Below are positions 12,402-45,323 of a stretch of 48,487 nucleotides of DNA, in pieces. The notes under the pieces are model-generated. The model ran no database searches, was not told where the DNA came from, and worked only from the letters and a program-made list of their open reading frames with translations. The translations under genes were made by a program, and so were the position numbers. Within the stretch, counting starts at the first letter, position 1, and each line of letters starts with the position of its first letter. Origin of the DNA: a virus; the IMG/VR virus record IMGVR_UViG_3300022752_000113, positions 1 through 48,487 of that record; one strand, written 5' to 3'.

Positions 12402-13094
12402 ATGAATTTTAATGAATGTAAAAAAATAATTTTAGAAATTTTAAAGGAAAGAAATTTTATTTTAATAAACGAAAATACAATTTGGCATAATCATCATATT
12501 TTGCCTAAGCATTTTGGTGGCAAAAATGAAGAAGAAAATTTAATTAAAGTTACGAGCGAAGAACACGCTAGAATACATAAAAAATTATTTGAACAATTTA
12601 ATAATAAAAAAGATTGGCTAGCATGGCAAGGTCTTTCTGGCTTTTTAGGAAAAGAAGAGATAATTAAACAATCTATTAAAATTGGTTCATCTAAAGCTGG
12701 AAAAATCGCTGGAAAAAAATCTTTAGAGAGTGGTCGCTTACTAGAAATGTCTAAAAAAGGAATCGAAAAATTTCGTGAAAAATTTTCGAGCGAAAAAGAA
12801 TATAAAAGTTATTTTTCAAATATTTCTAAATTACAAAAAGGCAAAACAAAGCCAAATTTAAAAAATTATATATGGATCACAAATGGTTTGGAAAATAAAA
12901 AAATACACATAAATGATGAAATTCCAATAACATTTAGAAAAGGTAGAACAAAAAAATGGAAAACAGGTTTCAATAATAACAAAAAAGAAAAAATAATTTG
13001 TCCTTATTGTAAAAAAATAGGAGGCAAACCTGTTATGAAAAGATTTCATTTTGACAACTGTAAATTTATTAAACCTAAAATCGGAGAAACATGA
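12402..13094 (+). CDS. HNH homing endonuclease
   Basis: A 230-residue free-standing homing endonuclease. The HNH motif is HNHHILPKHFGG, ENLIKVTSEEHARIH (His31-32, Asn47, His55, His59). Next come Gly/Lys-rich NUMOD-like DNA-binding modules (GSSKAGKIAGKKS; WITNGLENKKI), and a C-terminal zinc finger with CPYC and a later His/Cys pair (HFDNC). Such enzymes spread by cutting phages that lack them. A GAAGG site precedes the start. Its TGA overlaps the ATG of the tagged gene at 13091, so it is coupled to it. Confidence 0.88.
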   Translation: MNFNECKKIILEILKERNFILINENTIWHNHHILPKHFGGKNEEENLIKVTSEEHARIHKKLFEQFNNKKDWLAWQGLSGFLGKEEIIKQSIKIGSSKAGKIAGKKSLESGRLLEMSKKGIEKFREKFSSEKEYKSYFSNISKLQKGKTKPNLKNYIWITNGLENKKIHINDEIPITFRKGRTKKWKTGFNNNKKEKIICPYCKKIGGKPVMKRFHFDNCKFIKPKIGET

Positions 13095-13537
13095 AATTTT
13101 CAGAATGGTTAGAATTAAGAGAAGAAAAAGATGCTTGTTATAAAAAAGTAAAATCAAGATATAAAGTCTGGCCTTCTGCGTATGCTTCTGGAGCCTTAGT
13201 TAAGTGTCGTAAAGTGGGAGCAAAAAACTGGGGCAATAAATCAATCAATAAAGAATCTTTTATCAATATGGATGTTGCATCTATGATTACTAAATTTAAT
13301 GAAGGCACTTTCGATCTTGAGAAAGAAAGAGGATTAAGAGGATGGTTCGATAGAAATCAAGGAAAAGGCTGGATAGATTGTAAAAAAAGCAAAAAAGGAA
13401 AATTAATTCCTTGTGGAAGAAAAAAAGCAGGCAGAGGAGCAGAAAGAAAGTACCCAGCCTGTAGGCCAAATCTTTCTGCTTGTAATAAAAAAGGCATAAA
13501 AAGAAAAAAGAGTTCTAAAAGAATTTCTTGGGATTAA
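13091..13537 (+). CDS. Tagged DUF5872-like basic protein
   Basis: A 148-residue, Cys- and Lys-rich protein. It opens with the recurring tag MKFSEWLELREE. Residues about 13-50 match DUF5872 in pattern (DACYKKVKSRYKVWPSAYAS, then KCRKVGAKNWG). The C-terminal half contains LRGWFDRNQGKGWIDC and CGRKKAGRGAERKYPACRP, a block I recall from aquatic phages, with six cysteines that may bind metal. Basic charge suits DNA or RNA binding. With its tag it is a candidate for packaging in the head. Confidence 0.75.
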   Translation: MKFSEWLELREEKDACYKKVKSRYKVWPSAYASGALVKCRKVGAKNWGNKSINKESFINMDVASMITKFNEGTFDLEKERGLRGWFDRNQGKGWIDCKKSKKGKLIPCGRKKAGRGAERKYPACRPNLSACNKKGIKRKKSSKRISWD

Positions 13538-13540
13538 ATT

Positions 13541-13645
13541 TCATTTTTTATCTCTTAGTCCTTTCAAGGTTTTCCAAAAGTTGCATTTCTTTTCAGCTTT
13601 ACTAGAAGGAGGATTTTGGCAATATTTTGTTATACTCTTTTTTTT
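13541..13645 (-). pseudogene. Displaced C-terminus of the 13602 gene
   Basis: Open in the frame one base from the written gene. It encodes a Cys-containing tail (CQNPPSSKAEKKCNFWKTL) ending LRDKK and stops four bases from the convergent gene at 13537. This is direct evidence of an indel, or slippage, at the T8 run. Confidence 0.45.
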
Positions 13646-13904
13646 CTTTGTTGCCGCTCTGGTCAAGTTTGATCCAATTTGAAAATTTGTAACTTTCGTC
13701 TTTTTGAGTAGCAAGTTTTTGAAACGTATTTATTGTTCTATTTGGATCTACTATTATTTTTTTTATTTCTTTTTCTCCATCTTTGCTTGTTATCTTTTTC
13801 CAAGCTTTTTCTCTTGTGTTCTTAGTGTATTTTTTGAATACCCCTTCCAAGCTTTTTGCAATGTCTACCACCGCGTCTTTAATGTTTGTGCTATTTTTTT
13901 CCAT
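13602..13904 (-). CDS. Helical basic protein with an internal tag motif; end frameshifted
   Basis: A 100-residue protein as written, Lys-rich and helical, with no known domain. Residue 71 onwards reads YKFSNWIKLDQSG, the same sort of motif that starts the tagged genes, but here internal and without a Met. The frame stops after an eight-T run (13638-13645). Shifting one base there gives a longer ending with KYCQNPPSSKAEKKCNFW and a stop at 13541, which exactly fills the space to the convergent gene. The written C-terminus is therefore doubtful. Confidence 0.5.
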   Translation of the reverse strand: MEKNSTNIKDAVVDIAKSLEGVFKKYTKNTREKAWKKITSKDGEKEIKKIIVDPNRTINTFQKLATQKDESYKFSNWIKLDQSGNKEKKEYNKILPKSSF

Positions 13905-13906
13905 AA

Positions 13907-14089
13907 TTAAGCCTTATTGAATTTCATTTTTAGTATTTTATTTTTTTTATTATTTTTGCATCCAAGATTAGATCCCGAACCTTGAATTTGAAAGTTTGGG
14001 TTGTTAAAATCTTTGCAAGACACTATAGACCCCACAGAGCCCATCATTTCTTTTAATTGTCTATTTTCAAGCCATTTTTTGAATTTCAT
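13907..14089 (-). CDS. Small tagged protein
   Basis: A 60-residue protein starting with the tag MKFKKWLENRQL. The rest is Gly/Ser/Asn-rich with two cysteines (VSCKD, LGCKN) and a basic end. No Shine-Dalgarno is seen; instead CAATATATAAA ends two bases before the ATG. It is in a leftward pair with the tagged gene at 14114. No known domain. Head packaging is inferred only from the tag. Confidence 0.65.
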   Translation of the reverse strand: MKFKKWLENRQLKEMMGSVGSIVSCKDFNNPNFQIQGSGSNLGCKNNKKNKILKMKFNKA

Positions 14090-14091
14090 AA

Positions 14092-14099
14092 TTTATATA
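14092..14099 (-). promoter_or_regulatory. TATA-type box abutting a tagged gene
   Basis: TATATAAA on the leftward strand, preceded by CAA, two bases from the ATG at 14089. If it is a -10 element, the transcript would be leaderless or nearly so. Confidence 0.4.
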
Positions 14100-14113
14100 T
14101 TGATTTTTTGTGT

Positions 14114-14899
14114 TTAATATGTGCTTAATGCTGCACAAATAGCATTTGTTATTTCTTGGATTGGTTGGGCAGGGGAGAAATATTCATCCCATTCCGATGG
14201 TTGAAGATACCAAACGTGTCCTTTTTTTGGAGATTGGACATCATGACCATACGAACGGATCAAACCTGTTTTTGGATTGTAGTTCATATTTATTTGAAAG
14301 TTTTCTAATCTAGAACTTCCTGGAGTTTCTACTCCTTGACCTTTACATTCAAAATATATGATGTAATTTTCGTTATGTTTTATTTCTTTTACTCCTCTGA
14401 AAATAAATATTTCTGGGAGTATGTTGGGCTTTTGACATTCGTGGACTAATTTGACAACTAGAGATTCTAAATTTGAATAGTCGCCAATAGCAGATTCAAG
14501 TTGATTTATTTCTTCAATTTTTTCAAACAATTTATAAGCTAGATCTTTATTGTTTTGTATATTGGCCTGTACAAGATCATGATAAGGAATTATTTTTTTA
14601 CATATCCAAGTGTCATTTCCTTCTAAATTTGTTTGCAATCCTCTTATTATACTTTTGAATGATCCTAATGGACTTACAACCATTCTTATCGCACCATTTT
14701 GGTTTCCCCATTGGATTTCATTTACGAATCTAGAAAATGGCATTTGATCTTTGAATGGCATTTTCAATAAAGTTTCTACTGCTACTTCTATATTAAGAGG
14801 CGTTATTGGAAGTTCTTCTGGTTGTTTTAAAACTTTGATTTTTGATATTTTTTCAAAACCAAATATATCTTCTTTTAATAGCCAATTTTTAAAGTTCAT
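14114..14899 (-). CDS. Tagged protein of unknown function
   Basis: A 261-residue protein opening with the tag MNFKNWLLKEDIFG. The remainder looks like a mixed alpha/beta globular domain: PFSRFVNEIQWGNQNGAIR and VSPLGSFKSIIRGLQ in the first half, an acidic helix in the middle, and YIIYFECKGQGVETPG with HVWYLQPSEWDEYF at the end. The strand with ECKGQ resembles a nuclease-type ExK, but I cannot place the other catalytic residues. It diverges from the tagged gene at 14936. Confidence 0.65.
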   Translation of the reverse strand: MNFKNWLLKEDIFGFEKISKIKVLKQPEELPITPLNIEVAVETLLKMPFKDQMPFSRFVNEIQWGNQNGAIRMVVSPLGSFKSIIRGLQTNLEGNDTWICKKIIPYHDLVQANIQNNKDLAYKLFEKIEEINQLESAIGDYSNLESLVVKLVHECQKPNILPEIFIFRGVKEIKHNENYIIYFECKGQGVETPGSSRLENFQINMNYNPKTGLIRSYGHDVQSPKKGHVWYLQPSEWDEYFSPAQPIQEITNAICAALSTY

Positions 14900-14935
14900 G
14901 ATAATTTATTTATTACTTTAGTACATAAATATTAT

Positions 14936-15259
14936 ATGGTAAAATTCTCTATTTGGCTGGAAAATAAGCAAATTGATATAATAAGAGACGCTATATTAGG
15001 CGTTGTTGGCGGAGAATCTGATCTTAGCATTCAAGAAAAACAACATTTTCTTCAAAGAAACACCACAGAGTTTAGCAATGAAATATTGAAAAAAATAATA
15101 AATTTAGGCATAATAAAAGCTTTGTCCCAAACAAATCCTAATAAATTTATATCAATTAAAAATCTTATAAAAAATGGAATTTCAATAGGCGAATTAATCG
15201 ATAAAATAAAATCAGAAAATATGGCTCCGAACGCACAAATAGAAAGCAATGTTGAATGA
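14936..15259 (+). CDS. Small tagged helical protein
   Basis: A 107-residue protein starting with the tag MVKFSIWLENKQ. The rest is mostly helix, with a hydrophobic stretch (DAILGVVGGE) and no cysteines. CATAAATA ends five bases before the ATG and there is no Shine-Dalgarno. Its last codons overlap the start of the glycosyltransferase gene by four bases. No known family. Confidence 0.65.
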   Translation: MVKFSIWLENKQIDIIRDAILGVVGGESDLSIQEKQHFLQRNTTEFSNEILKKIINLGIIKALSQTNPNKFISIKNLIKNGISIGELIDKIKSENMAPNAQIESNVE

Positions 15260-16092
15260 AAATTGCTGCATTAATTAATACACATAAAAATTCAGAAATA
15301 TTTAGAGAAGCATTAGATTCAATAAGAACTTATTTATCAAAAGATATATTCGTATTAATTGATGGATCTTATTCTAAACAATTTGATTCTTTAAATTGTA
15401 ATAAGATATATGGATTTAGACATGGAGAGAACATATCTGAGATTAATCATTCTTTAAAAACCAGAGCTCCTCATAGAAACGTTGCTTTAGGATTAATGAA
15501 AATATACGAAGCTTATAAAGATTCTGTGGATTGGTATTGTTATTTTGAATCTGATTGTCTGATCACATCCGACCAGATCAAGTACGAACTAAACAATTTT
15601 CTTAAAGATAATTATTGGGTTGTAGGCAATGATGTTCGAAGTGCAAAAGCAAAAATAAAATCTATAAGTTATTTTCTTGGAAAAGATTATGATGATTTAA
15701 GATATTGTTTAGGATGTTGCGTATTTTATAGTTCCAAATTTATAAAAAAATTATATGAAGATAATTTTTTTAATAGGTTTTTAGAAATAACAAATTTTTA
15801 TTCTGAATTTACTTGTGGATTTGTTTATGAAAATACAAACGAACAAGTATATGACCTAAGTGAATACTTGTACCCAACTTTAGCTCATTATTATGGGGGC
15901 AAAATAAAAGAGTTAAACTGTTGGGATAAAGAAAACAATAAGTGGAAAGAAAAAAAGTATCTAATGAGATTCAAGCCAGAAATCTCTGATGAAGATCCTT
16001 ATTTAGACGCATATATTGTTCATCCTATAAAGGATATTTCCAATCCAATATTGCAATACTACAAAAATAAAAGAAGCAGTTTTTATATATAA
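15256..16092 (+). CDS. Glycosyltransferase-like protein (GT-A type)
   Basis: A 278-residue protein. The N-terminus (MKIAALINTHKNSEIFREAL) has the strand and helix of family 2-like enzymes, LIDGSYS follows, and the likely metal-binding motif is YFESDCLI (residues about 95-102), an ExD variant of DxD. A Cys pair, YCLGCCVF, occurs in the middle. First of four sugar-transferase genes in a rightward run, overlapping the upstream tagged gene by ATGA. Substrate unknown. Confidence 0.65.
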   Translation: MKIAALINTHKNSEIFREALDSIRTYLSKDIFVLIDGSYSKQFDSLNCNKIYGFRHGENISEINHSLKTRAPHRNVALGLMKIYEAYKDSVDWYCYFESDCLITSDQIKYELNNFLKDNYWVVGNDVRSAKAKIKSISYFLGKDYDDLRYCLGCCVFYSSKFIKKLYEDNFFNRFLEITNFYSEFTCGFVYENTNEQVYDLSEYLYPTLAHYYGGKIKELNCWDKENNKWKEKKYLMRFKPEISDEDPYLDAYIVHPIKDISNPILQYYKNKRSSFYI

Positions 16093-16095
16093 TGT

Positions 16096-16728
16096 ATGAA
16101 AATTTGCACATTGGCAATAGGAGATAAATATATTGATTTAGCAAACAAATTGAAAGAAAGTTTGCCCTTTGAATTGCACATTTTTGATGAAAAAAAAATT
16201 CCTGCCGGATACTGTATTTTTAAAAATAATTTTTTTAATTACAATTGCAAAAGACATGTGCTTTTAGATGACAAAGAAACGGAATTCTTATTTGTTGATG
16301 CAGATAGCATATGTCATAAAAAAGATAAATTTCTAGACTTTTATACAACAACTGAATGTATGACACCAGGGGTGTATTCTACTTACACTTGGTCTTCTTA
16401 TGGATTTCATGTTCCTAAAATAAAAGAGAATGTATTAGATAAAAGTTTGCTAAAAGAAAAAGTAGTTTTATTCAATGAGTTATTGAAATTTACTGATGAA
16501 CAATTATTGAAACTACAAGCTCCTGGCGAGTGGATATTGTTTTATAAATTTGAGAACACTCAGCAAAAAAATAATTTTTACAAAATGTGGGGACTGTTAG
16601 AAAATAAATTGTTATCTAGTGATATAAAATATTTAGGAGCCGAATGCTTTTCGATTGCAATGTCGGCTATTTATTGTGACCTGCCTGTATGTAGATTTGG
16701 AAAAGACATAGGAATAAAACATAAGTGA
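16096..16728 (+). CDS. Glycosyltransferase-like protein with DxD motif
   Basis: A 210-residue protein. MKICTLAIGDKY resembles the first GT-A strand, and LFVDADSICHKK (residues about 56-67) contains a DxD-type metal site. The C-terminal half (GAECFSIAMSAIY) is helical. It is smaller than most complete glycosyltransferases, so it could be a minimal GT-A domain. It follows the previous transferase by three bases. Acceptor unknown. Confidence 0.6.
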   Translation: MKICTLAIGDKYIDLANKLKESLPFELHIFDEKKIPAGYCIFKNNFFNYNCKRHVLLDDKETEFLFVDADSICHKKDKFLDFYTTTECMTPGVYSTYTWSSYGFHVPKIKENVLDKSLLKEKVVLFNELLKFTDEQLLKLQAPGEWILFYKFENTQQKNNFYKMWGLLENKLLSSDIKYLGAECFSIAMSAIYCDLPVCRFGKDIGIKHK

Positions 16729-16768
16729 TATTGGAGTAAATATAACACATAAACATTTTTTATATGAA

Positions 16769-16794
16769 TATATAATTTAGTTATTATAAAGGAG
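16769..16794 (+). promoter_or_regulatory. TATA-type promoter box and ribosome binding site of the fucosyltransferase gene
   Basis: TATATAAT at 16769-16776, then AAAGGAG at 16788-16794, serving the ATG at 16802. This is the clearest pairing of the late-type box with a good Shine-Dalgarno. Confidence 0.5.
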
Positions 16795-16801
16795 TATAAA
16801 A

Positions 16802-17686
16802 ATGATAACAGGACGTTATATTGGAAGGCTTGGCAATAATATGTTTCAATACGCAACGTATTATGCAATATCTAGAAAAACAAACTATCTTTTAAAGTCT
16901 CCTTTTATAAAAGATTTTCCTAACACCAGCACTGTTTTTGGTGAAAAAAGTTACGAAACAGAAAAAAAATATAGGATCCCATGCAAATTCAATTACATGG
17001 TTGATTATTCAAAATTGAATTTAGATCCTCAACAAACAATAGAGTCGATTGGCCATTGGGAAAATATTTATAATTTCAATGAATATAAAGAAGAAATAAA
17101 AATCATATTTGATTTGCCACACTTCCCAGAAGAAGATTACAAATATTTTATTATAAATCGTAAAAAGAATATTTATGAAAATATACCCCTGGAACAGCCC
17201 ATTGGCAAGGATGATTTAGTTATATCTTTAAGACTTGGGGATTTTTTAAGGCCTAACGTAAAAACAAATCCTCCTTATAATGTTTTACTTTATAATTATT
17301 TTAAAATAATACTAAGAAACATAAAACACAACAGATTGTTTATTACTTCTGATGAACCTTTTAATCCTTTTGTTAATGAATTTAGAGATCATAATCCAAT
17401 AATAATAGAAAATGAAAGCGCTATAAAAACAATGTCTTTTGTTACAAAATTTAATAAAATAGCTATTTCTCAAAGCACGTTCAGTTGGTGGGCTGCTTAT
17501 TTATCAGAAGCAGAAGAGGTTTATTCTCCGATATCTAAAAGAGGGCCTTTTTCTATGGATAGAAATAGAATTAAGGATCAATACATTAGAGTTCATGAGT
17601 CAAGATACAAATATGTTCAACAAAGTTCTGGGGAAATATTCGATTGGATAGACGCCCCAGGAAGAAGAGACATAGATGATTTTTAG
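16802..17686 (+). CDS. GT11 alpha-1,2-fucosyltransferase-like protein
   Basis: A 294-residue protein with the GT11 signature set: GRLGNNMFQYA (residues 8-18) at the N-terminus, SLRLGDF (142-148, the counterpart of HxRxGDY with His replaced by Leu) and SQSTFSWWAAYL (223-234). Such enzymes move fucose from GDP-fucose to a galactoside. They occur in O-antigen and capsule clusters; here one sits among phage glycosyltransferases. The His-to-Leu change could alter activity. An acidic/aromatic tail (FDWIDAPGRRDIDD) is extra. Confidence 0.82.
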   Translation: MITGRYIGRLGNNMFQYATYYAISRKTNYLLKSPFIKDFPNTSTVFGEKSYETEKKYRIPCKFNYMVDYSKLNLDPQQTIESIGHWENIYNFNEYKEEIKIIFDLPHFPEEDYKYFIINRKKNIYENIPLEQPIGKDDLVISLRLGDFLRPNVKTNPPYNVLLYNYFKIILRNIKHNRLFITSDEPFNPFVNEFRDHNPIIIENESAIKTMSFVTKFNKIAISQSTFSWWAAYLSEAEEVYSPISKRGPFSMDRNRIKDQYIRVHESRYKYVQQSSGEIFDWIDAPGRRDIDDF

Positions 17687-17698
17687 TTATTATTGCAA

Positions 17699-17706: not shown

Positions 17707-17732
17707 ATATATTTTTATTGTAGATATTTAAT

Positions 17733-19130: not shown

Positions 19131-20537
19131 ATGCCAACCGTACTAAAAATAGACAACTGCTATAGTCAGCTTCTTTCTGACAATATGGAGATGTTGACTG
19201 TTCTCTATAACAATATGAGATTTAGAGAAAGAAACTATTTTCATAGCAGATTATACAAACAAAAGCTTTGGGATGGATATACAGATTTTTTTAGTAAAAA
19301 AACAGGCAAGTTCTTAACGGGCCTACTGCCAGAGGTGCAAGCTGCTTTGGATCATTTGGGAGAAAAGTACGAAACAATAGATAATAGACAACAAGTTAAT
19401 TTTGTTGTTGATCAAATAGATGAAAATTTTCTTGATGGATTTGAATTATATGATTATCAAGTAGATTTAACTAATGCACTAATAAAGCATAGACGTGGAG
19501 TTATTTGTGCTCCTACTGCTGCGGGAAAGACGGCAATTATGCTTTCTATATTAAAGGCTTTGCCTAAAAATTGTCCTACATTAATTCTTGCGAATAAGAA
19601 AAGCCTTGTAGAACAAAATTATGAAGAAATGACAAAAGCTGGTTTTGAGAATGTAGGAAGACTTTATGCAAATCATAATAAGCCAAACATTCTAACATGT
19701 GCCACAGTACAATCTCTACATAAAATGGAATCTTTATTAGATAAAATAAAAGCGGTTGTAGTTGATGAAATTCATGAAAATATGAGCAAAGAGCCCAAAA
19801 AGTACTTGAACAAAATGAAAAGTTGCTCAGTTAGAGTAGCGGTCAGCGCAACTCCATTTAAGTTTGGAGGAAAAGATTTGTGTCAAAAGTGGTTGGTAAA
19901 AGGATACTTTGGACCGGTACTAAAGTCAAAAAGTGCTGGTGGGGTTTTGACTACGAAACATCTTCAAGAAAGAGGAATGTTAGCTAAATCTAAATGTACA
20001 TTCTATCCGGTAAGAGAACCGGAATTAAAATATGAAATATATTTGGATGCTGTAACTCGTGGCATAGCAGAAAATTGGGGCTTCCACGATGCAGTTGTAA
20101 AGTTAGCAAATAAACTGCAAGGTAGAACTTTAATTTTGGTTGATAGAATAGCACATGGAGATGCTTTGTTCTCTATGATGCCCTATGCTCTTTGGGTTCA
20201 GGGCAAAGATGATTTAGATACAAGAAAATTTGTAATTGAAAAGCTTAAGTATAGCAAAGATAAAACTATAGCAATTGCAACCCAACAGATTTTTAATGCT
20301 GGCATTAATGTAAAAACACACAATGTAATAAACGCAGCAGGCGGTCAAGCTGATCACCATATAATTCAAAGAGTAGGAAGAGGACTTAGAACCGCTGATG
20401 ATAAGGATATATTAAATTACTATGATTTTATATTCTATAATAACCAATATTTACTGAACCATAGCAGAAAAAGAATAAAAATACTTCAAAAAGAAGGCCA
20501 TGAAATAATTATAAAAGATAACATTGATGATATATAA
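19131..20537 (+). CDS. uvsW: UvsW-like SF2 DNA helicase
   Basis: A 468-residue superfamily 2 helicase. An N-terminal DNA-binding part (residues 1-100, with NYFHSRLYKQKLWDGY) precedes the motor: Q-like YDYQ, Walker A APTAAGKT (127-134), DEIH (212-215), SAT (239-241) and motif VI QRVGRGLR near 422. Length and layout fit T4 UvsW (about 500 residues), which unwinds R-loops and branched DNA and moves Holliday junctions at the switch to recombination-dependent replication. It fits with the gp46/gp47 genes further right. Confidence 0.88.
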   Translation: MPTVLKIDNCYSQLLSDNMEMLTVLYNNMRFRERNYFHSRLYKQKLWDGYTDFFSKKTGKFLTGLLPEVQAALDHLGEKYETIDNRQQVNFVVDQIDENFLDGFELYDYQVDLTNALIKHRRGVICAPTAAGKTAIMLSILKALPKNCPTLILANKKSLVEQNYEEMTKAGFENVGRLYANHNKPNILTCATVQSLHKMESLLDKIKAVVVDEIHENMSKEPKKYLNKMKSCSVRVAVSATPFKFGGKDLCQKWLVKGYFGPVLKSKSAGGVLTTKHLQERGMLAKSKCTFYPVREPELKYEIYLDAVTRGIAENWGFHDAVVKLANKLQGRTLILVDRIAHGDALFSMMPYALWVQGKDDLDTRKFVIEKLKYSKDKTIAIATQQIFNAGINVKTHNVINAAGGQADHHIIQRVGRGLRTADDKDILNYYDFIFYNNQYLLNHSRKRIKILQKEGHEIIIKDNIDDI

Positions 20538-20597: not shown

Positions 20598-20954
20598 ATG
20601 GGGAATTTCAAGAATTGGGTAGATAAAAATAAAAATTGCAAGTGTAAGTGTCCCCCTTGTTCTAAAGGAAATTGTAAAAATTGTGATTGCAAAGATTGCA
20701 AATGTCTAAATTGTACTTGTGGAAATAAAAAACCAGTCAAAGCCTCAGAAAACAATAAAGAAATAAAAGTCAAAAAAACAAATAATAAAGAAAAAGAAAA
20801 TAAAATTGTTGATAATAAAAATAAAAATTGTTCTTGCCCTTGTTTTCCTTGCTCTAAACTAGGTAATTGCAAAGATTGCAATTGCAAAGGTTGCAAATGC
20901 AAAGGTTGTAAATGCAAAGGTTGTAAATGCAAAGGTTGTAAATGCAATAAATAA
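20598..20954 (+). CDS. Tagged cysteine-rich, metallothionein-like protein
   Basis: A 118-residue protein with 26 cysteines and 34 or so lysines and almost no hydrophobic residues. It begins with the tag MGNFKNWVDKNK. Two Cys-rich lobes (residues about 14-41 and 78-118) flank a Lys/Asn/Glu-rich linker. The lobes have CxC and CxxC spacing, and the second ends in four tandem KGCKC units. This is the chemistry of a thiolate metal-cluster protein. No metallothionein family match is claimed. Packaging into the head is inferred from the tag. The stop touches the next gene's start. Confidence 0.7.
   Translation: MGNFKNWVDKNKNCKCKCPPCSKGNCKNCDCKDCKCLNCTCGNKKPVKASENNKEIKVKKTNNKEKENKIVDNKNKNCSCPCFPCSKLGNCKDCNCKGCKCKGCKCKGCKCKGCKCNK
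20886..20945 (+). repeat. Four tandem 15-bp repeats encoding KGCKC
   Basis: AAAGGTTGTAAATGC four times (the first copy has one C for T), in frame with the Cys-rich gene. It can grow or shrink by five residues without a frameshift. Confidence 0.9.
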
Positions 20955-21524
20955 ATGCTCAAATTAAAACAAACAAGATTTATGATGGTTTCAATTCCTA
21001 GAAGTGGCCATCATTTGTTAGAAAGATTTTTAAGATATTATTATGAAAAAAATAATTTAGAATATAGTTACTGTGAGTTTTATAAACACTGCAATAGAAT
21101 TCCTTGTATAAATAACTCTATTTTTCAAAAGAACCATGATTGGGATCTATCTTTGCCTATAACAAAAGAATACAAATACATAGTGATGTATAGGGGCAAT
21201 ATAATTGAACAATTAGAATCTTTTTATAGGCATAATTACAAAATAAACTCTAAGGAAAATATTAATAATTTTTTTTCTTTTTTTAAAGATAAAAATGAAT
21301 ATTATATTAAATTTTTGAATAAATGGTTAATTAATGAAAATAAAAATATAATAAAAATTGAATATAATGAATTTGTTAATGATTATTTCAAAATATTATG
21401 CGAATTGCTAAAATTTATTTTTAAAGATAATTTTATAAATACTGAAACAATACATGACTTTGTTGAAATTGAAAAAATAAATAAAAAAAACAATGTTAGT
21501 TTATTCGATTTATTAAATATATAA
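20955..21524 (+). CDS. Sulfotransferase-like protein
   Basis: A 189-residue protein. The N-terminal SIPRSGHHLLERFLR (residues 13-27) is the PAPS 5'-phosphosulfate loop of sulfotransferases (PRSG variant), and YRGNIIEQLESFYRH matches the 3'-phosphate-binding strand-helix of the family. Shorter than most (250-300), so the acceptor part is reduced. Begins exactly after the stop of the Cys-rich gene. Probably adds sulfate to a glycan, in line with the sugar-transferase genes nearby. Confidence 0.65.
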   Translation: MLKLKQTRFMMVSIPRSGHHLLERFLRYYYEKNNLEYSYCEFYKHCNRIPCINNSIFQKNHDWDLSLPITKEYKYIVMYRGNIIEQLESFYRHNYKINSKENINNFFSFFKDKNEYYIKFLNKWLINENKNIIKIEYNEFVNDYFKILCELLKFIFKDNFINTETIHDFVEIEKINKKNNVSLFDLLNI

Positions 21525-21528
21525 ATTT

Positions 21529-22122
21529 ATGATAACATTTCAAAAATGGCTAGAACAAAATACTCTCGGCACTGAATTTGTAGATGAAAAACAAATTGAT
21601 TTAATCTATGATAATGCAAAATATGCTGTAAAACTCGTCCAACTTTATAGCAAAATGACTGGACAAAAATTATTAAACAACATAAGCACCATAGCTCCAC
21701 TTAGTTCTGGTGTTTATGGACTTTATAATTCTAAAGAAAATAAAAAAGTCATAGGTCCAACCGCCGCCAATAAAATAAAATTTAAGTTTGGACAAAATAT
21801 TGTTGATAAAAATAATTTAAATCAAATTCCAAATGTTGTAATTAAAAATTACATTCCTGATATTGATATCAATCAACTAAAGCCCTCAGTTGTAATACAT
21901 GTAAATGTCAATAAAATTGTTTCTGAATTAGGAGATTCTAAGCAAGCAATAATAGAAATAGCAAGTACCATAATTCATGAAGCTACACATGATTTAGAAT
22001 TTCAATCTACTGGAAAAACTAGCGAAATCGGACCCAGGTCAGCTGAATATAAATTCAAATCTTGGGTTGATAAAAATTGGAATTTAATTACTTCTAGAAT
22101 TCCTCAATTATCTTCTATTTAG
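21529..22122 (+). CDS. Tagged HEATH-type zinc metallopeptidase
   Basis: A 197-residue protein with the tag MITFQKWLEQN at its start. The C-terminal half has TIIHEATHDLEF with HEATH at residues 150-154, a zinc HExxH site, and Glu173 (SAEYKF) 19 residues later as a possible third ligand, as in gluzincin-like enzymes. There is no signal peptide. It could be a virion-internal protease acting in the head or in the host after injection; that is inference. The end overlaps the convergent membrane protein gene. Confidence 0.68.
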   Translation: MITFQKWLEQNTLGTEFVDEKQIDLIYDNAKYAVKLVQLYSKMTGQKLLNNISTIAPLSSGVYGLYNSKENKKVIGPTAANKIKFKFGQNIVDKNNLNQIPNVVIKNYIPDIDINQLKPSVVIHVNVNKIVSELGDSKQAIIEIASTIIHEATHDLEFQSTGKTSEIGPRSAEYKFKSWVDKNWNLITSRIPQLSSI

Positions 22123-23994: not shown

Positions 23995-24004
23995 CTTTGT
24001 TTCA

Positions 24005-24012
24005 TATATAAA
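24005..24012 (+). promoter_or_regulatory. TATA-type box abutting the Gly/Pro-rich tagged gene
   Basis: TATATAAA three bases before the ATG at 24016; no Shine-Dalgarno. Confidence 0.4.
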
Positions 24013-24015: not shown

Positions 24016-24366
24016 ATGATAAATTTTTATGATTTTATAAACATTTTGAATGAGGCTCCAACACCGCCGCCAACGACTTCAACCCCACCTAAAAACCCAA
24101 CGCCCCCAGCAGGTGGAACCAATAGTCCAGAAATCGGAAGCCCTTCTAACGCTCCATTAGGGGGTCCAGCGGGAGGCATAGGAGGAGGGATTGGTTCTTT
24201 AGGGCCTGGGCCTGTAGGTGGTTCTTCTATCGGAGGCCCTCCTGAATTAAGTCCTTCGGGCTCTATGGGAAGTGGAAAATCAGGCCCTGTAGCGGTTCAA
24301 AAAGTAAAATCAATTGATGTTTGGTCTGCTTTAGAAAAGCTTATAAAAAATAACAATGGACAGTAA
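24016..24366 (+). CDS. Tagged Gly/Pro-rich protein
   Basis: A 116-residue low-complexity protein. The start MINFYDFINILNEAPT is a divergent form of the shared tag and contains LNE followed by Ala, which looks like a T4 prohead-protease cut site. Residues about 15-95 are Pro/Thr then Gly/Ser/Pro repeats, probably disordered or a filler. The last 20 residues form a helix (VWSALEKLIKN). Its GC is above the local mean. No known domain. Confidence 0.65.
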   Translation: MINFYDFINILNEAPTPPPTTSTPPKNPTPPAGGTNSPEIGSPSNAPLGGPAGGIGGGIGSLGPGPVGGSSIGGPPELSPSGSMGSGKSGPVAVQKVKSIDVWSALEKLIKNNNGQ

Positions 24367-31551: not shown

Positions 31552-31932
31552 ATGAAAAAAAAATTAGAACTTAAAAAGTCTAAAATTGAGCTATGTCCTA
31601 TTTGCAATCAAAAAATGGACATGTGTGTTACTTCTCATAAAAATAAGCCATTTGTAGATAATAAATTGTACCCAAAAATGTGCTTTACTTGCTATTCTGT
31701 TCCTAAAATAATTGATCAAAAGTATGATGAAAAAGGCTATATAATCGAAGAAAACATCTTAGAGTATAGCCATAAAAATTTACATAAATCAGAAGAAATA
31801 TTTCACCAAGGATCGGCAGATACACTAGAGCAAGCTAAAAAGTGTGTTAGGAGTGTAAAGAATTTAGTTGTACAAAAAGATGCCAAACAAAAAGAAAAAA
31901 GTAAGCCTAAATTAGAGTTTTATATTTTATGA
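31552..31932 (+). CDS. Zinc-ribbon-like small protein
   Basis: A 126-residue protein from 31552. The N-terminal CPICNQKMDMC and CFTCYS form a CxxC...CxxC zinc-ribbon-like site, then a helical Lys/Glu part (QGSADTLEQAKKCVRSVK). No named family. Its stop overlaps the next tagged gene's ATG. Confidence 0.65.
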   Translation: MKKKLELKKSKIELCPICNQKMDMCVTSHKNKPFVDNKLYPKMCFTCYSVPKIIDQKYDEKGYIIEENILEYSHKNLHKSEEIFHQGSADTLEQAKKCVRSVKNLVVQKDAKQKEKSKPKLEFYIL

Positions 31933-32267
31933 TGTTTAAAGAATTTTTATTAAATGAAAATAAAATTGTATTGTCCGAAAGGATAGGCGACATATTAAAT
32001 GCTTTAGAAGATTTGCTAGAGAACATGAAGAATCTTGGCTCTAGAATGTCCAGCGATGCGGCAGAAAATATTGTTAATCAAATAAGAAGTAAAATATTAA
32101 GAGTAAAGTGGCCAGACGCACAAAAAAATAATATTCTCTTAATAAGAAATTGTGCGGTTGCCATAATGAAAAGTATAAAAGAAAAAAACGATTTAGAAAT
32201 GGCAATTAAAATTTCTATAAAAACATTAGAAAAAATAGTATCAAATTTAGATTCTCCTATTTTTTAG
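31929..32267 (+). CDS. Tagged helical protein
   Basis: A 112-residue protein starting MMFKEFLLNENKI, a Phe form of the shared tag with an LNE site. The remainder is all-helical (ILNALEDLLENMKNLG, AENIVNQIRSKI, AIKISIKTLEKI). No known fold. Its stop shares a TTAG with the convergent fibre-like gene. Confidence 0.65.
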   Translation: MMFKEFLLNENKIVLSERIGDILNALEDLLENMKNLGSRMSSDAAENIVNQIRSKILRVKWPDAQKNNILLIRNCAVAIMKSIKEKNDLEMAIKISIKTLEKIVSNLDSPIF

Positions 32268-38519: not shown

Positions 38520-39056
38520 ATGAGTAGTGAGTATTTAAATAACAAATTTTTTGAAAAAATAATATGTCAATTTCAAAATTGTAGAAGAGAAAAATTTAGA
38601 TTGGAAATTTTGATTGAAGATATAAATTTTACAATAATAAGAAAAAACAACAAAAATATAAATTGCTGTGCTAATAAAGAAGATTTATTAGAAAAACAAA
38701 GTAATTATAAAGAAACTTGTCAAGAGTATGAAGACATTAAGAAAAAACTTGCCATAGCCTTTTTTACATTATCAGAAAATATAGTTAGATATGCCAAATT
38801 TCAGTTAATAGATATGGATGATGCTATTCAAGAAGGAGTTATGATTTGTTTTGAAAAAATTAATAGATTTGACCCCAGAAAAGGCAAGGCATTTAACTAT
38901 ATGACAACTTGCATACTAAATCATTTTAGACAGTTGTATAGGTCTGCTAGGAATTATAATGAATTGAAAAAGAAATACTTAAAACACGTGCAATTTTTTC
39001 ATAATCAATTAATTATAAAAAATGGAAAAGAAATTTTTATAGAAAGATCAAAGTAA
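38520..39056 (+). CDS. 55: Late sigma factor, T4 gp55-like
   Basis: A 178-residue protein with sigma70 region 2: a long N-terminal helix, then IVRYAKFQLIDMDDAIQEGVM (in parts), with DMDDAIQEG as the DLxQE-type helix, FEKINRFDPRKGKAFNYMTTCI and FRQLYRSARNYNEL as regions 2.3-2.4 and the -10-binding part. There is no region 4, as in T4 gp55, which directs late transcription from TATAAATA boxes. TAGGAG lies before the ATG. Many TATA-type boxes in the window fit this role. Confidence 0.82.
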   Translation: MSSEYLNNKFFEKIICQFQNCRREKFRLEILIEDINFTIIRKNNKNINCCANKEDLLEKQSNYKETCQEYEDIKKKLAIAFFTLSENIVRYAKFQLIDMDDAIQEGVMICFEKINRFDPRKGKAFNYMTTCILNHFRQLYRSARNYNELKKKYLKHVQFFHNQLIIKNGKEIFIERSK

Positions 39057-39821: not shown

Positions 39822-40302
39822 GATCAATAGTTAAATAATTATTGTCTTGCATATCTAACTCTCCCCATTCTATATTATTCGGCCAAACATTAATAAATTT
39901 CCATGTTTCAATAACATTTCCACATCCATCGTACATTTCCAATGTTGCATTTTCTTTTTTAAATTTTCTATCATCTCCTCCGTAACCTACCTTCCACGTT
40001 CCGTTTTGCGTGTCATATTGTTCTTTTATCCAATTGAGAACAGGGTTTTGATTTTTTTTCAAATCATATAAAGTTAAATTAATTGGCTTCCAATCTGGCT
40101 TTGAAGGATAATATATTATCTCATTTAAATGCTGAACTTCTACCTCTTTAAAGCTCAAACTAGGCCTTGCACCCTTCTCAGGAGGCAATGAATTTACTCC
40201 TTGGGCACAAACTTCGTCTATTTTAAATAGCCATCTAAACTTCCTCATAAGGCATAGATCGGGCTTCTCTAATCCGAAGTCAAATCCCATTTGTTGAGCC
40301 AT
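39787..40302 (-). CDS. Tail tube-like protein (gp19 family), second copy
   Basis: A 171-residue protein with the gp19 pattern: MRKFRWLFKIDEVC, RPSLSFKEVEVQHLNEIIYYP, LTLYDLK, a WIKEQY helix, LEMYDGCGNVIETWKFINVWPNNIEWGELD (quoted in parts: LEMYDGCGN, WPNNIEWGELD) and LTIDLTLRYDRA. It parallels the next gene along its full length. It may form the tube end or a baseplate disc. A strong hairpin lies between the two genes. Confidence 0.8.
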   Translation of the reverse strand: MAQQMGFDFGLEKPDLCLMRKFRWLFKIDEVCAQGVNSLPPEKGARPSLSFKEVEVQHLNEIIYYPSKPDWKPINLTLYDLKKNQNPVLNWIKEQYDTQNGTWKVGYGGDDRKFKKENATLEMYDGCGNVIETWKFINVWPNNIEWGELDMQDNNYLTIDLTLRYDRAYIE

Positions 40303-40323
40303 TTTTATTCCTCTTTAAATAGG

Positions 40324-40360
40324 CACAAGAGGGTTTATAAGATAAACCCTCTTGTGTTTT
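40324..40360. terminator. Very strong hairpin between the two tube genes
   Basis: A 15-bp perfect stem, CACAAGAGGGTTTAT and ATAAACCCTCTTGTG, with a 3-base loop, followed on the rightward strand by TTTTAT. On the leftward coding strand the T-run is absent, so it may act as an attenuator or an mRNA end rather than a full terminator. Confidence 0.6.
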
Positions 40361-40387
40361 ATATGAATGATAATTTTATAATAAATA

Positions 40388-40972
40388 TCAAGAGCAGCTT
40401 TCGCAATTTGGTGAAGGTTCTTTGACGCAACCAGAGAGCGACTTGTAAGCAACGTTTGAGTATCTTAGAGTAACTTCAATTGTAACTTCTTCGGAAGAAG
40501 CATAATCTAGTTCTCCAAAATTTACTGCTTGTGGCCACATGTCTCCTAGGGTCCATTGTTCAAGAGCTGTACCGCAACCATCATACAATTTCAAGCTACC
40601 AAGCCCAGCATAACCTCTTCTGATGCTATTTTGCTTTAGTGAAACTGGCTTTGTATAATCGTATACGTTTGCTAGCCAAGTCCAAAGACCTTCGTTTCCT
40701 GTTCCGCCGCTGACTGCAACGTCATAATAGGTAACAGTAAGAGTTTCCCAAGTGCCTTTTCCTGGAATCCAGGTCTTTGCATTTAGGTAATTAATTTCCT
40801 GTTCTTCTATTGTGATATTTGGTCTTGCTGCGGTCTTAACAAAGTGTTCTGGGACCAATTGAGCTCCTTGAGCCCCTCCATCCTGTTGTTTGAAAACTTC
40901 AAATGTCCACCTAAACTTTCTCTTATGTAGAACACCTGAGCCACCTAGTTGGCCAATACCCATGTCTATCAT
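40388..40972 (-). CDS. 19: Tail tube protein, gp19-like
   Basis: A 194-residue protein with the gp19 tube fold: LHKRKFRWTFEVFKQ, RPNITIEEQEINYLNAKTWIPG (in parts), TVTYYDV, WTWLANVY, GSLKLYDGCG, WPQAVNFGELDYASSEEVT and RYSNVAYK. It makes the inner tube of the contractile tail. Situated right after the sheath gene, as in T4 (18-19). Its Cys-rich end (CVKEPSPNCESC) is unusual. Confidence 0.88.
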   Translation of the reverse strand: MIDMGIGQLGGSGVLHKRKFRWTFEVFKQQDGGAQGAQLVPEHFVKTAARPNITIEEQEINYLNAKTWIPGKGTWETLTVTYYDVAVSGGTGNEGLWTWLANVYDYTKPVSLKQNSIRRGYAGLGSLKLYDGCGTALEQWTLGDMWPQAVNFGELDYASSEEVTIEVTLRYSNVAYKSLSGCVKEPSPNCESCS

Positions 40973-41007
40973 TTTTTATTCTCCTTATTTTTTTACTTAA
41001 TTTTTTC

Positions 41008-43440
41008 TTAGAAACTTTCGGCAATTCCTTCAAAACTGCCTGTTCTATGAATGCTAAACTCAAGGAACATAAATTCTACCGCTCTTGTTGGTTGAACACC
41101 AATTCTGGCTCTGAATTCATTTCTATCAATAACATCCGGTGTATTTAGCTCGGTGTCTGCTTTGATAATGAAATCTGTCAATCCTCTTCCAACTTGAACT
41201 TGTTCAAGAATCTTAGTTGCTATTGTGATGAACTTCTGTCTGAATATTTCATCATGTGGTTCGAATAGCAAGATTCTAGAAGCAGCTCTAATTCTCTTTT
41301 CTATTACGAACATTAATCTTCTTACGTTGACTCTATCCAATGCTGTTGGTTTTCTTTGTAGTGTCTTTTGACCCCAAACAACATAGTCTTGTGAATCAAT
41401 GTATTGAACGATAGGATTGATTGCATTTCTATTTCCATACATCAAGTCTCTTTCTTCTAATGTTGGTCTGCTGAAAACGTCTGTTATATTTGGAACAACG
41501 CCTCTAGTTAGACCCGCTGGTGCAAACCAAGGTGCTGCCAAGAAGTCGTTTCTGGCATAAACAGCCATTACAGAGCCACTTGGTGGAACCCATACGTCAA
41601 CATTGTTGAATATGTCACGGATCTTGACCCATGGCCAGTATAGTGCAGCAAAGTCAGAATCAAATCTAGTTGTGTTCAATGGATGAGAACCGTTTTGCCA
41701 CATTACTATTTCCTTGACAGTTAGTCCGAATGGAGGATCAATAATTGCCAAGCAATCTGATCTTACATTTTGACACATGTCAATTAGGGCCAAAACTACG
41801 CCGGTTGAACAATGGCCTGGAACAGCAACAATATCAAGATCAATTTGTTCTGGTTCGCTCAAGGCATATATTCCTGACATTCCTAGTAGATTTCCAATTA
41901 TTAGATAATCTTGATCATCTGGGTCTGCTGGTATTCCGTCTTTTCCACCTGATAAACTATAGGTTCCATCAAGAGGAGGAGCAGGATTATCAGTGTTATC
42001 AACAACTCTTACGTAGTCAGAAACTAAAGATAAGAATGTTTCTACATAAAATCTGCTGGACTCATCCTTGGTAAGATTTCCCCAAGATTCCATTTGGACT
42101 CCATTGTTATAAACTTCCATTATGAAGTTGCCTTCTCTAATGTTATTCTTAACAACAATTTGAGTCGCATTTCCATCAACGCCCGCTGTATCGGCAGTAA
42201 CTCTAACAGAAACATCTCCCGTTGTGTTGCTGTCTCCTGATACTAAACCTAAGTCTTGGATGTTGGCATCTCCTGTTACTCCACTAGGAGTAATGCCCTC
42301 GGCTGTGTACCATATTCCTGGAGTTGATTCGTCATCGGTTGGATCTTCTAGTGGTTGGTCAAATCCGAAGAATTCAAATGTTGAGCTTTCGCTCTTTATT
42401 AGTATTCTTGCGTCTCTACCATGGTGTAATGTTTTTACCGAAACATTGTTTCCAACTGCAACTGCTTCAAATCCTCCTGGAACGTCTCCACTGCTTATTT
42501 GGTTATTGATTTCTGTAACCACAGCCGATGTTGAAACTGTAGAATCACCTGCAAAAGTTGACAAGTCAATTACTTGAACAACATTGTCTATGTTTACATT
42601 GTCTGTTCCGTCTACTACAACTTGTAGATCATATGAAGTTAGTTTTGTAAAGTCCCAATTTCCTGCGGTGTTGTATGAATCATCTGGATACATATCCAAA
42701 GCACCTGTAAATTGAGCAACAGTTAATCCTTGAGCCAAACCTGTTGGATGGTCTACTCCTATTGGTCCATAAATTGCATCTTGAACTGATACTAGTTCTA
42801 GTGTTGCACTAGGTCCGAAAGAAAATACTGTTCTAACTGCAATTTTTGCACTTACTTCATCTGTTGCAAAGAATTCAATTCCATCTATATCTGGAACTAA
42901 CTGTGAATTTAAGTCTTCTGCTAATTGAGCAGCAGAGTAGCCTGAGTCATTTACTACCGGATCTGGATGGTCTGAGTTAGCTAATACAACTAGTGTTTTT
43001 GATGCCAAAACTCCATTTAGTCTCCATCTCAAATAACCAGCCTTATTGAAATCATAATTTCCGGCAGTGTCAGATTGGAGAATTACTTGGCCACCAGCGC
43101 TAGGAACTTCTACGTAGGCTGCTGTTGCTGCTTCTGAACTTACTGCGTCTGTGTCAGCAACTCTTACTATGTATAGTTCATTGGCAACCAATAAATATTG
43201 CTCGGCGGCGTATATTAGATAAGGGTCGCCACTTTCTGGATGCGGATATCCAAATACAGTATTTAGCTGTCTTCTTGTGGATATCATCGTAGGTATGTTT
43301 ATTGGTCCTTTGCTTGCAAATCCAACCAGTCCAGCTCTGTGAAAAGATTGCTCTGGAGCAATAAAGCTTAGATCTTTTTCAGTTATACGAACTGATGGTG
43401 AAATTGTATTTGAAGGTGGAAAACCTTTTAGTATTGCCAT
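41008..43440 (-). CDS. 18: Tail sheath protein, gp18-like
   Basis: An 810-residue contractile sheath subunit, longer than T4 gp18 (659). The N-terminus (PSNTISPSVRITEKDLSFI, HRAGLVGFASKGPIN) and the C-terminal core (TLQRKPTALDRVNVRRLMF, EKRIRAASRILLFEPHDEIF, GRGLTDFIIKADTELNTPDVIDRNE in parts, RIGVQPTRAVEFMFLEF) are typical of the family. The middle, about 90-480, contains extra Ser/Thr/Asp-rich domains that likely sit on the outside. It contracts at infection. Gene order 15-18-19 is T4-like. Confidence 0.93.
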   Translation of the reverse strand: MAILKGFPPSNTISPSVRITEKDLSFIAPEQSFHRAGLVGFASKGPINIPTMISTRRQLNTVFGYPHPESGDPYLIYAAEQYLLVANELYIVRVADTDAVSSEAATAAYVEVPSAGGQVILQSDTAGNYDFNKAGYLRWRLNGVLASKTLVVLANSDHPDPVVNDSGYSAAQLAEDLNSQLVPDIDGIEFFATDEVSAKIAVRTVFSFGPSATLELVSVQDAIYGPIGVDHPTGLAQGLTVAQFTGALDMYPDDSYNTAGNWDFTKLTSYDLQVVVDGTDNVNIDNVVQVIDLSTFAGDSTVSTSAVVTEINNQISSGDVPGGFEAVAVGNNVSVKTLHHGRDARILIKSESSTFEFFGFDQPLEDPTDDESTPGIWYTAEGITPSGVTGDANIQDLGLVSGDSNTTGDVSVRVTADTAGVDGNATQIVVKNNIREGNFIMEVYNNGVQMESWGNLTKDESSRFYVETFLSLVSDYVRVVDNTDNPAPPLDGTYSLSGGKDGIPADPDDQDYLIIGNLLGMSGIYALSEPEQIDLDIVAVPGHCSTGVVLALIDMCQNVRSDCLAIIDPPFGLTVKEIVMWQNGSHPLNTTRFDSDFAALYWPWVKIRDIFNNVDVWVPPSGSVMAVYARNDFLAAPWFAPAGLTRGVVPNITDVFSRPTLEERDLMYGNRNAINPIVQYIDSQDYVVWGQKTLQRKPTALDRVNVRRLMFVIEKRIRAASRILLFEPHDEIFRQKFITIATKILEQVQVGRGLTDFIIKADTELNTPDVIDRNEFRARIGVQPTRAVEFMFLEFSIHRTGSFEGIAESF

Positions 43441-43444
43441 AATT

Positions 43445-43669
43445 TTATTCTCCCTTGTTCAACTCTTTTTTTGTTAGGTATCTAGTAGAAATCAAACCCA
43501 TTTTTTCTGCTCTTTCAACATATTCCGTATTTCTTTCATCTTCTAGGTAATAAGTATTACGTCCTGCTCCTAAACCTGGAATATTTAGAGTTGTAAAAGC
43601 TTTAGGGGCCTTTCTTGATCTAATTACTAACTGTACTGGACTTTTCATTTTATTTTTTATTTCGATCAT
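43445..43669 (-). CDS. Small conserved tail-region protein
   Basis: A 74-residue protein: MKSPVQLVIRSRKAPKAFTTLN, a GLGAGRNTYYLEDERNTEYV turn and a basic end. Between gp15 and gp18. I recall similar proteins beside sheath genes in aquatic T4-like phages, function unknown. It directly abuts both neighbours. Confidence 0.6.
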   Translation of the reverse strand: MIEIKNKMKSPVQLVIRSRKAPKAFTTLNIPGLGAGRNTYYLEDERNTEYVERAEKMGLISTRYLTKKELNKGE

Positions 43670-44667
43670 TATTGCCCTTTCTTATACTCTTCAACTTCTT
43701 CTTCTAACCTTCCTAAAACTTCTTTGATTTTATTTTCCTCTACACTGTTGTAAAAATCAATTTTAGTCTTAAGTACCGACTTCTTACGAGTTATCGGCTG
43801 TGGTATATATGTCTTAGCGGTAAAATTTATTTCATATTTTATTATTCTTTGATTTTGATCGCCAGGCTCATAATCAACATTGTTTGCAACAGAGTCTAAA
43901 CTTACCGTTGTTTCCCAATGAACACCACGTACACTTATATATGCAATAGGAGAAAATTTTAAAAATATTTGTTCTAAAATTTGATCTACGTCTTCCATAA
44001 ACATAGTCCAAATTAATAAAGTATAGCCTTTATTTATAGGAATTCCGCGAGAAACACCGAACACAGTATCTCTTTCATATTTTTCTTTTATTGCAAATCC
44101 TGGCTTGCCATCAGATCGTAAGTCTCTTAAGTAATCTAAAGCTCTATGATATGTGTATCTTTCTGTATCGAAATCCATTGAATTTGAATAAATTGCCATC
44201 ATTGGCAATCTTATTCTTTCAACAACCAAACTGCCGTCTTTTCTAGTGTTATCTTGAAGTATCCAAGCAACTGCTTTTTCTTGAGTTCCCCATATTATTG
44301 GTACTTTATGAGCTTTTCCATCTTCATCTATTACCACTACGTTATTGAATAAATTCAACATTGCTTCATCGCAACCTCTTATACTTTTTGAATATCTATA
44401 AACCACTTCTCTAGTGGGGGATTTTATATCTTCTACAATTTGTCCGGTTTGAATTGGATCGCATTGAGCTTCTTCCCCCAGTCCAATTTTTTTATTGGCT
44501 GATTCTTCTAGCCACCCTAAATCTGGGCCCTGCACAGATTTTAAAGTTTCTTCATTTTTGCCACATTGACTAGGAACTTGGTCTTTATTTAATTGAGACT
44601 GAATGGGACTTTTGGCATTGCATTCATTTATACTTTTGTTGGGATAATTTCCTGGATCTACAGACAT
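43669..44667 (-). CDS. 15: Tail sheath stabiliser, gp15-like
   Basis: A 332-residue protein. The first about 90 residues are polar, then a gp15-like core: VPIIWGTQEKAVAWIL, VERIRLPMMAIYSNSMDFD, a TLLIWTMFMEDVDQILEQIFLKFSP helix (in parts), VHWETTVSLDSVANNVD and KYEINFTAKTYIPQPI. T4 gp15 caps the tail and joins it to the neck. Position between gp14-like and gp18 genes supports this. The N-terminal extension is longer than in T4. Confidence 0.78.
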   Translation of the reverse strand: MSVDPGNYPNKSINECNAKSPIQSQLNKDQVPSQCGKNEETLKSVQGPDLGWLEESANKKIGLGEEAQCDPIQTGQIVEDIKSPTREVVYRYSKSIRGCDEAMLNLFNNVVVIDEDGKAHKVPIIWGTQEKAVAWILQDNTRKDGSLVVERIRLPMMAIYSNSMDFDTERYTYHRALDYLRDLRSDGKPGFAIKEKYERDTVFGVSRGIPINKGYTLLIWTMFMEDVDQILEQIFLKFSPIAYISVRGVHWETTVSLDSVANNVDYEPGDQNQRIIKYEINFTAKTYIPQPITRKKSVLKTKIDFYNSVEENKIKEVLGRLEEEVEEYKKGQ

Positions 44668-44699
44668 TTGTTTTCCTCACTAATTTATTTAGTAAAGAT

Positions 44700-44837
44700 A
44701 TGAAATATTATAAAATTGTAAAAAAACAAGTTAAAAATCCTAAAAAGCCTTATATTAAAGAAATAATTATAAATAAAAAACCTGTTTTTCCAAGAATTAT
44801 GTTTTGGAAATCACTGATTAGGAAACTCACCAAATAA
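44700..44837 (+). CDS. Possible small basic rightward gene
   Basis: A 45-residue frame rich in Lys, Ile and Tyr (MKYYKIVKKQVKNPKKPYIK to KSLIRKLTK). It occupies the gap between two leftward genes and overlaps the end of the tagged gene at 44811. No ribosome binding site. Could be real; evidence is only the open frame and its charge. Confidence 0.35.
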   Translation: MKYYKIVKKQVKNPKKPYIKEIIINKKPVFPRIMFWKSLIRKLTK

Positions 44838-45323
44838 AGCTTTTTTCATGTTTACATTGCTGGCTCCTGTTGCACTTTGAATTGACTGTCCAATTTGATG
44901 CAATAAAGCATATCCTTTATTTTTATTTTTCATTTTAGAAATCAAATTCAATAATTTTCCTAAAACATTTTGCATTTGAGAGCTAAGAACTTTTAATTCT
45001 TTATCTTCTTCATTCCAATTGCTAATTAATTCACTTGGTTTATATTCTTCAAGTTTTGGATTTGAGTGCAAATGGTAATCTTTATCATCCATGTACATAT
45101 CTGAATCTCTGTCGTAATATTTTCCTTCTTTTGGATCATAGTAAACTACCTTGCCACTTTTTAGCATAAAAGGGCCTTCTAGTCCTTCAATTTCTGTATA
45201 TCTGTCTTTATCTATTGGCGGCATCTTTTTGCCGTACTTGTTCAGTACGGATTGAATAAATTGTTTTTTTTGATCCACAGAATTTTGTTTGTTTTCTACT
45301 ATCCAATTTGAAAATTTTTTCAT
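44811..45323 (-). CDS. Tagged protein inside the neck/tail cluster
   Basis: A 170-residue protein with the tag MKKFSNWIVENKQN at its start. After it come VLNKYGKKMPPIDKDRYTE, GPFMLKSGKVVYYDPKEGKYYDRD and a helical C-terminus (MQNVLGKLLNLISKMKN). Lying between gp14- and gp15-like genes suggests a virion part, which links the tag family to the particle. GATAAATA and AAGGA precede the start. Confidence 0.7.
   Translation of the reverse strand: MKKFSNWIVENKQNSVDQKKQFIQSVLNKYGKKMPPIDKDRYTEIEGLEGPFMLKSGKVVYYDPKEGKYYDRDSDMYMDDKDYHLHSNPKLEEYKPSELISNWNEEDKELKVLSSQMQNVLGKLLNLISKMKNKNKGYALLHQIGQSIQSATGASNVNMKKALFGEFPNQ

Follow-up and report, generated by a model that had tools for sequence, protein, structure and literature searches.

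An N-terminal tag resembling the T4 capsid-targeting sequence on unrelated proteins of a clade of uncultured T4-like phages

The T4 leader and its counterpart in the window

Only a few internal proteins are known from phage T4, and experiments established what their leader does; the capsid-targeting sequence (CTS) of IPI, IPII and IPIII was reportedly described by Mullaney and Black in 1996. The leader reads MKTFKEFTST in IPI and MKTYQEFIAE, followed by A, in IPII and IPIII. In IPIII the first ten residues are enough for packaging, residues 4 and 7 act mainly in targeting and residues 8 and 10 in processing (PMC9026906), and T-even phages carry further internal proteins recognised by the same leader (PMC12373910). 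Here we analysed the whole IMG/VR record IMGVR_UViG_3300022752_000113 (48,487 bases, hereafter the window), which evidently covers only part of a larger T4-like phage and in which nine genes with unrelated bodies begin with a common N-terminal tag that is very probably a CTS of the T4 type.

An earlier note on this DNA had listed these nine open reading frames, and all were confirmed in position, strand and N-terminus; its proposal that unrelated proteins share one tag also holds, as 9 of 9 fit the pattern M-x(1,2)-[FY]-x-x-[WF]-[LIVM], which leads with an aromatic at residue 3-4, a second aromatic three residues later and then Leu/Ile. Gene starts were taken from a simple gene caller. Of the 67 genes called automatically in the window seven are tagged, where the rate at which the pattern occurs inside these proteins would give 0.27 (p = 1.2e-8); in a control the pattern followed an internal Met in 4 of 204 cases. 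The caller skipped the 13907 gene (60 aa) and the Cys-rich 20598 gene owing to size or composition. Elsewhere in the window no plausible gene start fits; additional matches proved to be internal Met codons, located in the gene at 14114 and in the helicase gene at 19131. The coding DNA of the core five residues shares a mean 64% identity between genes and wobble bases differ, so the likeness lies at the protein level and does not reflect a recent DNA copy, an origin we rejected on these grounds.

A position-weight profile of the tag, built only from this clade (consensus approximately M-K-[TN]-F-K-E-W-L-E-[NE]-K-E, an acidic and not a basic peptide), was run against 242 called T4 genes as a blind test, T4 being absent from its training. 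IPI ranked second, IPIII third and IPII fifth, which supports the earlier suggestion of a T4-like CTS. First came gp61.1 (L063:18966-19130), an uncharacterised protein of 54 aa which starts MKTFKEFIKE, followed by D, and outscores the known internal proteins; it may thus belong among the T4 internal proteins and have gone unrecognised. The positions conserved in the clade tag are those that function in T4 IPIII (4, 7, 8 and 10), and the 44811 tag repeats the IPIII spacing, with aromatics at 4 and 7, Ile at 8 and Glu at 10. Shared with the T4 internal-protein CTS are the N-terminal place, the length, aromatics at 4 and 7, an aliphatic residue at 8, Glu at 10 and the unrelated bodies. The clade differs in scale, with 7-14 carriers per 100 kb in several contigs and 22-32 in one genome of 595 kb where T4 has four high scorers, in its putative leaderless late promoters, and in enzyme domains which are not known among the T4 internal proteins. 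The injected ADP-ribosyltransferase Alt of T4 is, by description, alike in being a head-carried enzyme from which gp21 cuts an N-terminal propeptide (PMC9026906, PMC5512222). Polyvalent proteins and head ejection proteins of the phiKZ/SPN3US type are, again by description, alike in being packaged in the head and delivered with the DNA, some of them in jumbo phages, but polyvalent proteins hold many domains in one chain and phiKZ head proteins are cut at S/A-x-E, unlike the T4-type tag (PMC5512222, PMC9026906).

The 13091 gene (13091..13537, plus strand) carries the tag MKFSEWLELREE at 13091-13126 (profile score 24.3), with a Shine-Dalgarno sequence upstream; its body had been labelled DUF5872-like, for which the Pfam match is weak (E 0.027, below cut-off), whilst it belongs clearly to the phage family phrog_727 (E 8.5e-23). 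Two minus-strand genes are tagged beside it: 13907..14089, with MKFKKWLENRQL at 14054-14089 (score 22.4) and orthologs in the related records G001 (79018) and G009 (3801), and 14114..14899 (261 aa), with MNFKNWLLKEDI at 14864-14899 (19.1), a tag retained by orthologs in G001, G004, G008 and G009. On the plus strand lie 14936..15259, helical, with MVKFSIWLENKQ at 14936-14971 (19.3) and a tagged ortholog in G001 (77885); 20598..20954, with MGNFKNWVDKNK at 20598-20633 (16.4) and a Shine-Dalgarno sequence; 21529..22122, a predicted metallopeptidase with an HExxH motif (HEATH), with MITFQKWLEQN at 21529-21561 (18.3); 24016..24366, Gly/Pro-rich, with MINFYDFINILNEA at 24016-24057 (10.5) and tagged Gly/Pro-rich counterparts in G001, G002, G009, G019 and G023; and 31929..32267, a four-helix protein found clade-wide, with MMFKEFLLNENK at 31929-31964, whose family keeps F3 and E10 invariant across 12 sequences sharing 36-46% identity with the window protein. 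The ninth, 44811..45323 on the minus strand, sits in the tail/neck gene cluster with a Shine-Dalgarno sequence and has its tag, MKKFSNWIVENK, at 45288-45323 (17.4).

A Pfam search of the nine bodies gave no match above cut-off, relatives of the 44811 protein were not found in viral contigs nor those of the 21529 protein in bacterial genomes, and neither the 31929 nor the 21529 model gave a significant match when searched by fold. In AlphaFold2 models of these two proteins the tag is helical and its confidence is the lowest or near-lowest in the chain (pLDDT below 50 over residues 1-20 of 21529), which is weak evidence for a tag added on to both, because the alignments are shallow. An untagged protein at 13602-13904 (minus strand) has an internal tag-like stretch, YKFSNWIKLDQ, and a stretch matching it is fused to a tag and a DUF5872-like body in L248.

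Relatives of the window and the range of cargo

The window encodes a tail sheath (41008..43440, minus strand), tail tube, tail sheath stabilizer, baseplate hub, head-tail adaptor and a gp55-like late sigma factor (38520..39056, plus strand; phrog_234 late sigma transcription factor, E 1e-8), which would read late promoters. With the sheath as query we found 23 related loci in contigs of up to 126.6 kb, one of which, G003, carries gp21 and gp23 and has a sheath 74% identical to that of the window; through its gp23 we then reached another 80 loci, contigs of 532.7 and 343 kb among them, as well as the 595-kb phage LR756511. The gp21 protease gene is present in 13 of 13 related head-bearing records, eight of which also have the window's tail sheath at 62-78% identity, and these relatives indirectly indicate that the window's own phage encodes gp21.

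A search for the tag in related phages, as the earlier note had proposed, showed it recurring on unrelated bodies. Tagged genes exceed expectation in G003 (10 against 0.25), G001 (10 against 0.42), G019 (9 against 0.34), G023 (9 against 0.20) and G024 (5 against 0.19), and in the large genomes G013 (533 kb, 10 against 1.6) and LR756511 (22 against 2.5), these counts being lower bounds per genome because most contigs are fragments. Enrichment reaches p <= 7e-6 in six further records, some at 51-53% GC. In loci linked by gp23, 59 of 808 unique genes are tagged, and the bodies of the clade's 133 distinct tagged proteins form 91 unrelated clusters, of which 70 are singletons. The strict pattern gave no tagged gene in G005, G007 and G020, although by profile score G005 and G020 do have a few; those of G020 (L190-L196, sheath 64%) are looser matches such as MELNFKRWLEDAG and MDFSFKDFLTE, and in that record the tag may be spaced or used differently. 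Possession of gp21 does not entail heavy use of the tag, for of the other T4-like phages that bear this protease cyanophage P-RSM4 has three matches against 0.35 expected whilst there are none in Mel-JY01 and LIS04. In another phage set, long proteins with a DUF5872-like domain start MKTFSQFLLEA or MKTFSDFLLEA (L280, L288, L289, L292, L313 and L274), suggesting that the tag reaches beyond the clade.

The DUF5872-like body is fused straight to the tag in the window, G001, L240 and L241/L242, stands untagged in many other phages (L275, for example, starts MPKDACYKKVK), and in another group follows a CTS-like start, MKTFSQFLLEA, at a distance of 170-320 residues. Pfam domains of tagged proteins begin downstream of the tag and comprise sigma-70 regions 2 and 4, C39 peptidase, AAA_33, NIF-like phosphatase, GP88, RNA ligase, RNase_T exonuclease, NUDIX and DUF3293, the last with a SAM-lyase-like match, the SAM-lyase model itself falling just below its cut-off; a weak PARP-like match, below cut-off, occurs in one tagged protein only (L140 17465). 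G019 encodes a tagged sigma-70 family factor (48900; L180:8900-9556) with regions 2 and 4 (E 3e-12 and 3e-8) which, if injected, could redirect host RNA polymerase at once. Two tagged proteins of G013 have SAM-lyase-like matches (L173:19469-19861 and L152:8798-9505), and an injected SAM-removing protein would blunt restriction or methylation-based defence.

Late-promoter-like elements and candidate cleavage sites

In T4 the late element TATAAATA covers -13 to -6 relative to the start site (PMC1524935). A late-type element, counted when within two mismatches and within 26 nt upstream, precedes 47 of 76 tagged genes against 406 of 2012 untagged ones (p = 1e-14). It ends 4-5 nt before the ATG in 24 of the 47, and abutting elements become commoner as the tag score rises, from 7% of genes to 59%. 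With the T4 spacing such an element would place the start of transcription at about the A of the ATG, so that tagged genes would often lie on leaderless late mRNAs; the late-type elements, together with the gp55-like sigma factor, suggest late expression. This link between tagged genes and late promoters is new here.

Within the window, late-promoter-like elements lie at 14094..14101 (minus strand, AATATATA, 4 nt before the 13907 ATG) and at 21516..21523 (plus strand, again AATATATA, 5 nt before the 21529 ATG), both registers having been read by hand, the first in an AT-rich stretch that allows others; a further one, CATATATA, lies at 24003..24010 (plus strand, 5 nt before the 24016 ATG). The short intergenic stretch 14900-14935 separates two divergent tagged genes and has late elements on both strands, AATAAATA at 14907..14914 (minus strand, 7 nt before the 14114 ATG) facing CATAAATA at 14924..14931 (plus strand, 4 nt before the 14936 ATG). 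G001 also has a divergent tagged pair (L034 18194-18211), in which the 20 nt upstream of both genes is the same palindrome, ATAGTAATATATATATTACT.

A candidate gp21 site, [LIVM]-x-E no more than 9 residues from the second aromatic, is found in 6 of 9 window tags: LRE in 13091, LKE in 13907 and 14114, LNE in 24016 (followed by A) and 31929, and IVE in 44811. Across the clade, 53% of body-cluster representatives have it near the tag, whereas later windows of these proteins show it in 11%. In the clade gp23, L-[IM]-N-E with S, T, A, N or V as the next residue is conserved at what is by analogy the T4 gp23 cut position. Judged from these motifs, gp21 cleavage of the tags is only partly supported. 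In T4 an Asp at position 10 stops processing yet leaves targeting intact (PMC9026906), so cleavage may be optional in the clade.

Proposed packaging and injection, and competing explanations

The identification of the tag as a CTS draws on its enrichment, the 91 unrelated bodies, the blind retrieval of IPI, IPII and IPIII, gp21 in all 13 relatives, the excess of [LIVM]-x-E, the gp23 motif, the invariance of F3 and E10, the late-element link, the occurrence of the same body with and without the tag, and Pfam domains that start after it. Several observations weigh against it. The clade favours Trp at the second aromatic where T4 has Phe, and G020, which bears gp21, has no strict match. Cut sites of the I/L-x-E kind proposed in the earlier note (with LNE, LKE or IVE as examples) have candidates in six tags, whilst three, those of 14936, 20598 and 21529, have no L/I-x-E nearby, and the 21529 family as such lacks one; the gp21-like protease it wished sought was not found in a search of the window alone, as expected of a fragment without head genes, and came to light in the relatives.

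The tag might instead lead into the prohead core proteins that serve as scaffold or in head assembly and are not injected. The clade-wide retention of the 31929 family, a tagged gene of G003 (10734) directly after the portal gene, and the part that IPIII itself plays in T4 head assembly (PMC9026906) all fit such a role, but 91 mostly lineage-specific bodies with domains such as sigma-70, C39 peptidase, RNA ligase, NUDIX and DUF3293/SAM-lyase-like are unlike scaffolds, and we consider it unlikely. An amphipathic helix addressed elsewhere, for example to the membrane, the replication compartment or the tail, is distinctly improbable: Phe, Trp and Leu would share one face of the helix predicted by AlphaFold2, and T4 proheads themselves form on the membrane, yet the peptide is acidic, about half of the tags end in a gp21-like site, and the profile picks out T4 internal proteins whose address is proven.

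The strong tie to an abutting late element raises the prospect that the shared start serves leaderless late mRNAs as a signal for translation or expression and has no role at the protein level. Because 13091, 20598 and 44811 are tagged despite their Shine-Dalgarno sequences, the tag is more than a component of a leaderless start, and its residues are kept whilst wobble bases vary; a pure expression signal was rejected on both counts and is very improbable. Chance likeness in an AT-rich genome, conceivable for a short motif in which Phe and Leu are common residues, has a negligible probability given p = 1e-8 in the window and <= 7e-6 in the six further records, some of them at 51-53% GC, and given orthologs that retain the tag; the relatives already refute it.

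Returning to the CTS, packaging, cleavage, injection and cargo function, as we infer them, would proceed as follows. Late promoters, going by their sequence, would drive the tagged genes, often as leaderless mRNAs; the tag, by its likeness to a proven signal, would take the proteins into the prohead core; gp21 would then cut many of them after [LIM]-x-E, an optional step with partial support; and, by analogy to T4, the proteins would remain inside the head until they pass into the next host along with the DNA. By the same analogy most of the cargo is probably injected. Among the bodies would be enzymes and inhibitors that act early, in a set that varies, and at least one core-like protein that is widely retained, the 31929 family. 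We lean, with less assurance, towards the clade running a general, sequence-addressed protein delivery in which any gene gaining a late-promoter-plus-tag start is expressed late as a leaderless mRNA and its product packed in the head and injected, giving 10-30+ cargo proteins per genome, among which would be predicted transcription, SAM-degrading, proteolytic and RNA-processing enzymes. The joining of late promoter and tag suggests how new cargo gets recruited.

This large expansion of a known T4-type mechanism is apparently unreported, as we found no report in the open-access literature of such an expansion of the tag outside T-even phages. It would make the leader readable from sequence in a diverse uncultured clade which includes phages of 500-600 kb, so that candidate first-minute proteins, likely injected, can be listed from DNA alone. 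Most cargo bodies lie outside known families and some carry domains expected of counter-defence or host take-over, and the list is therefore a source of testable anti-defence proteins.

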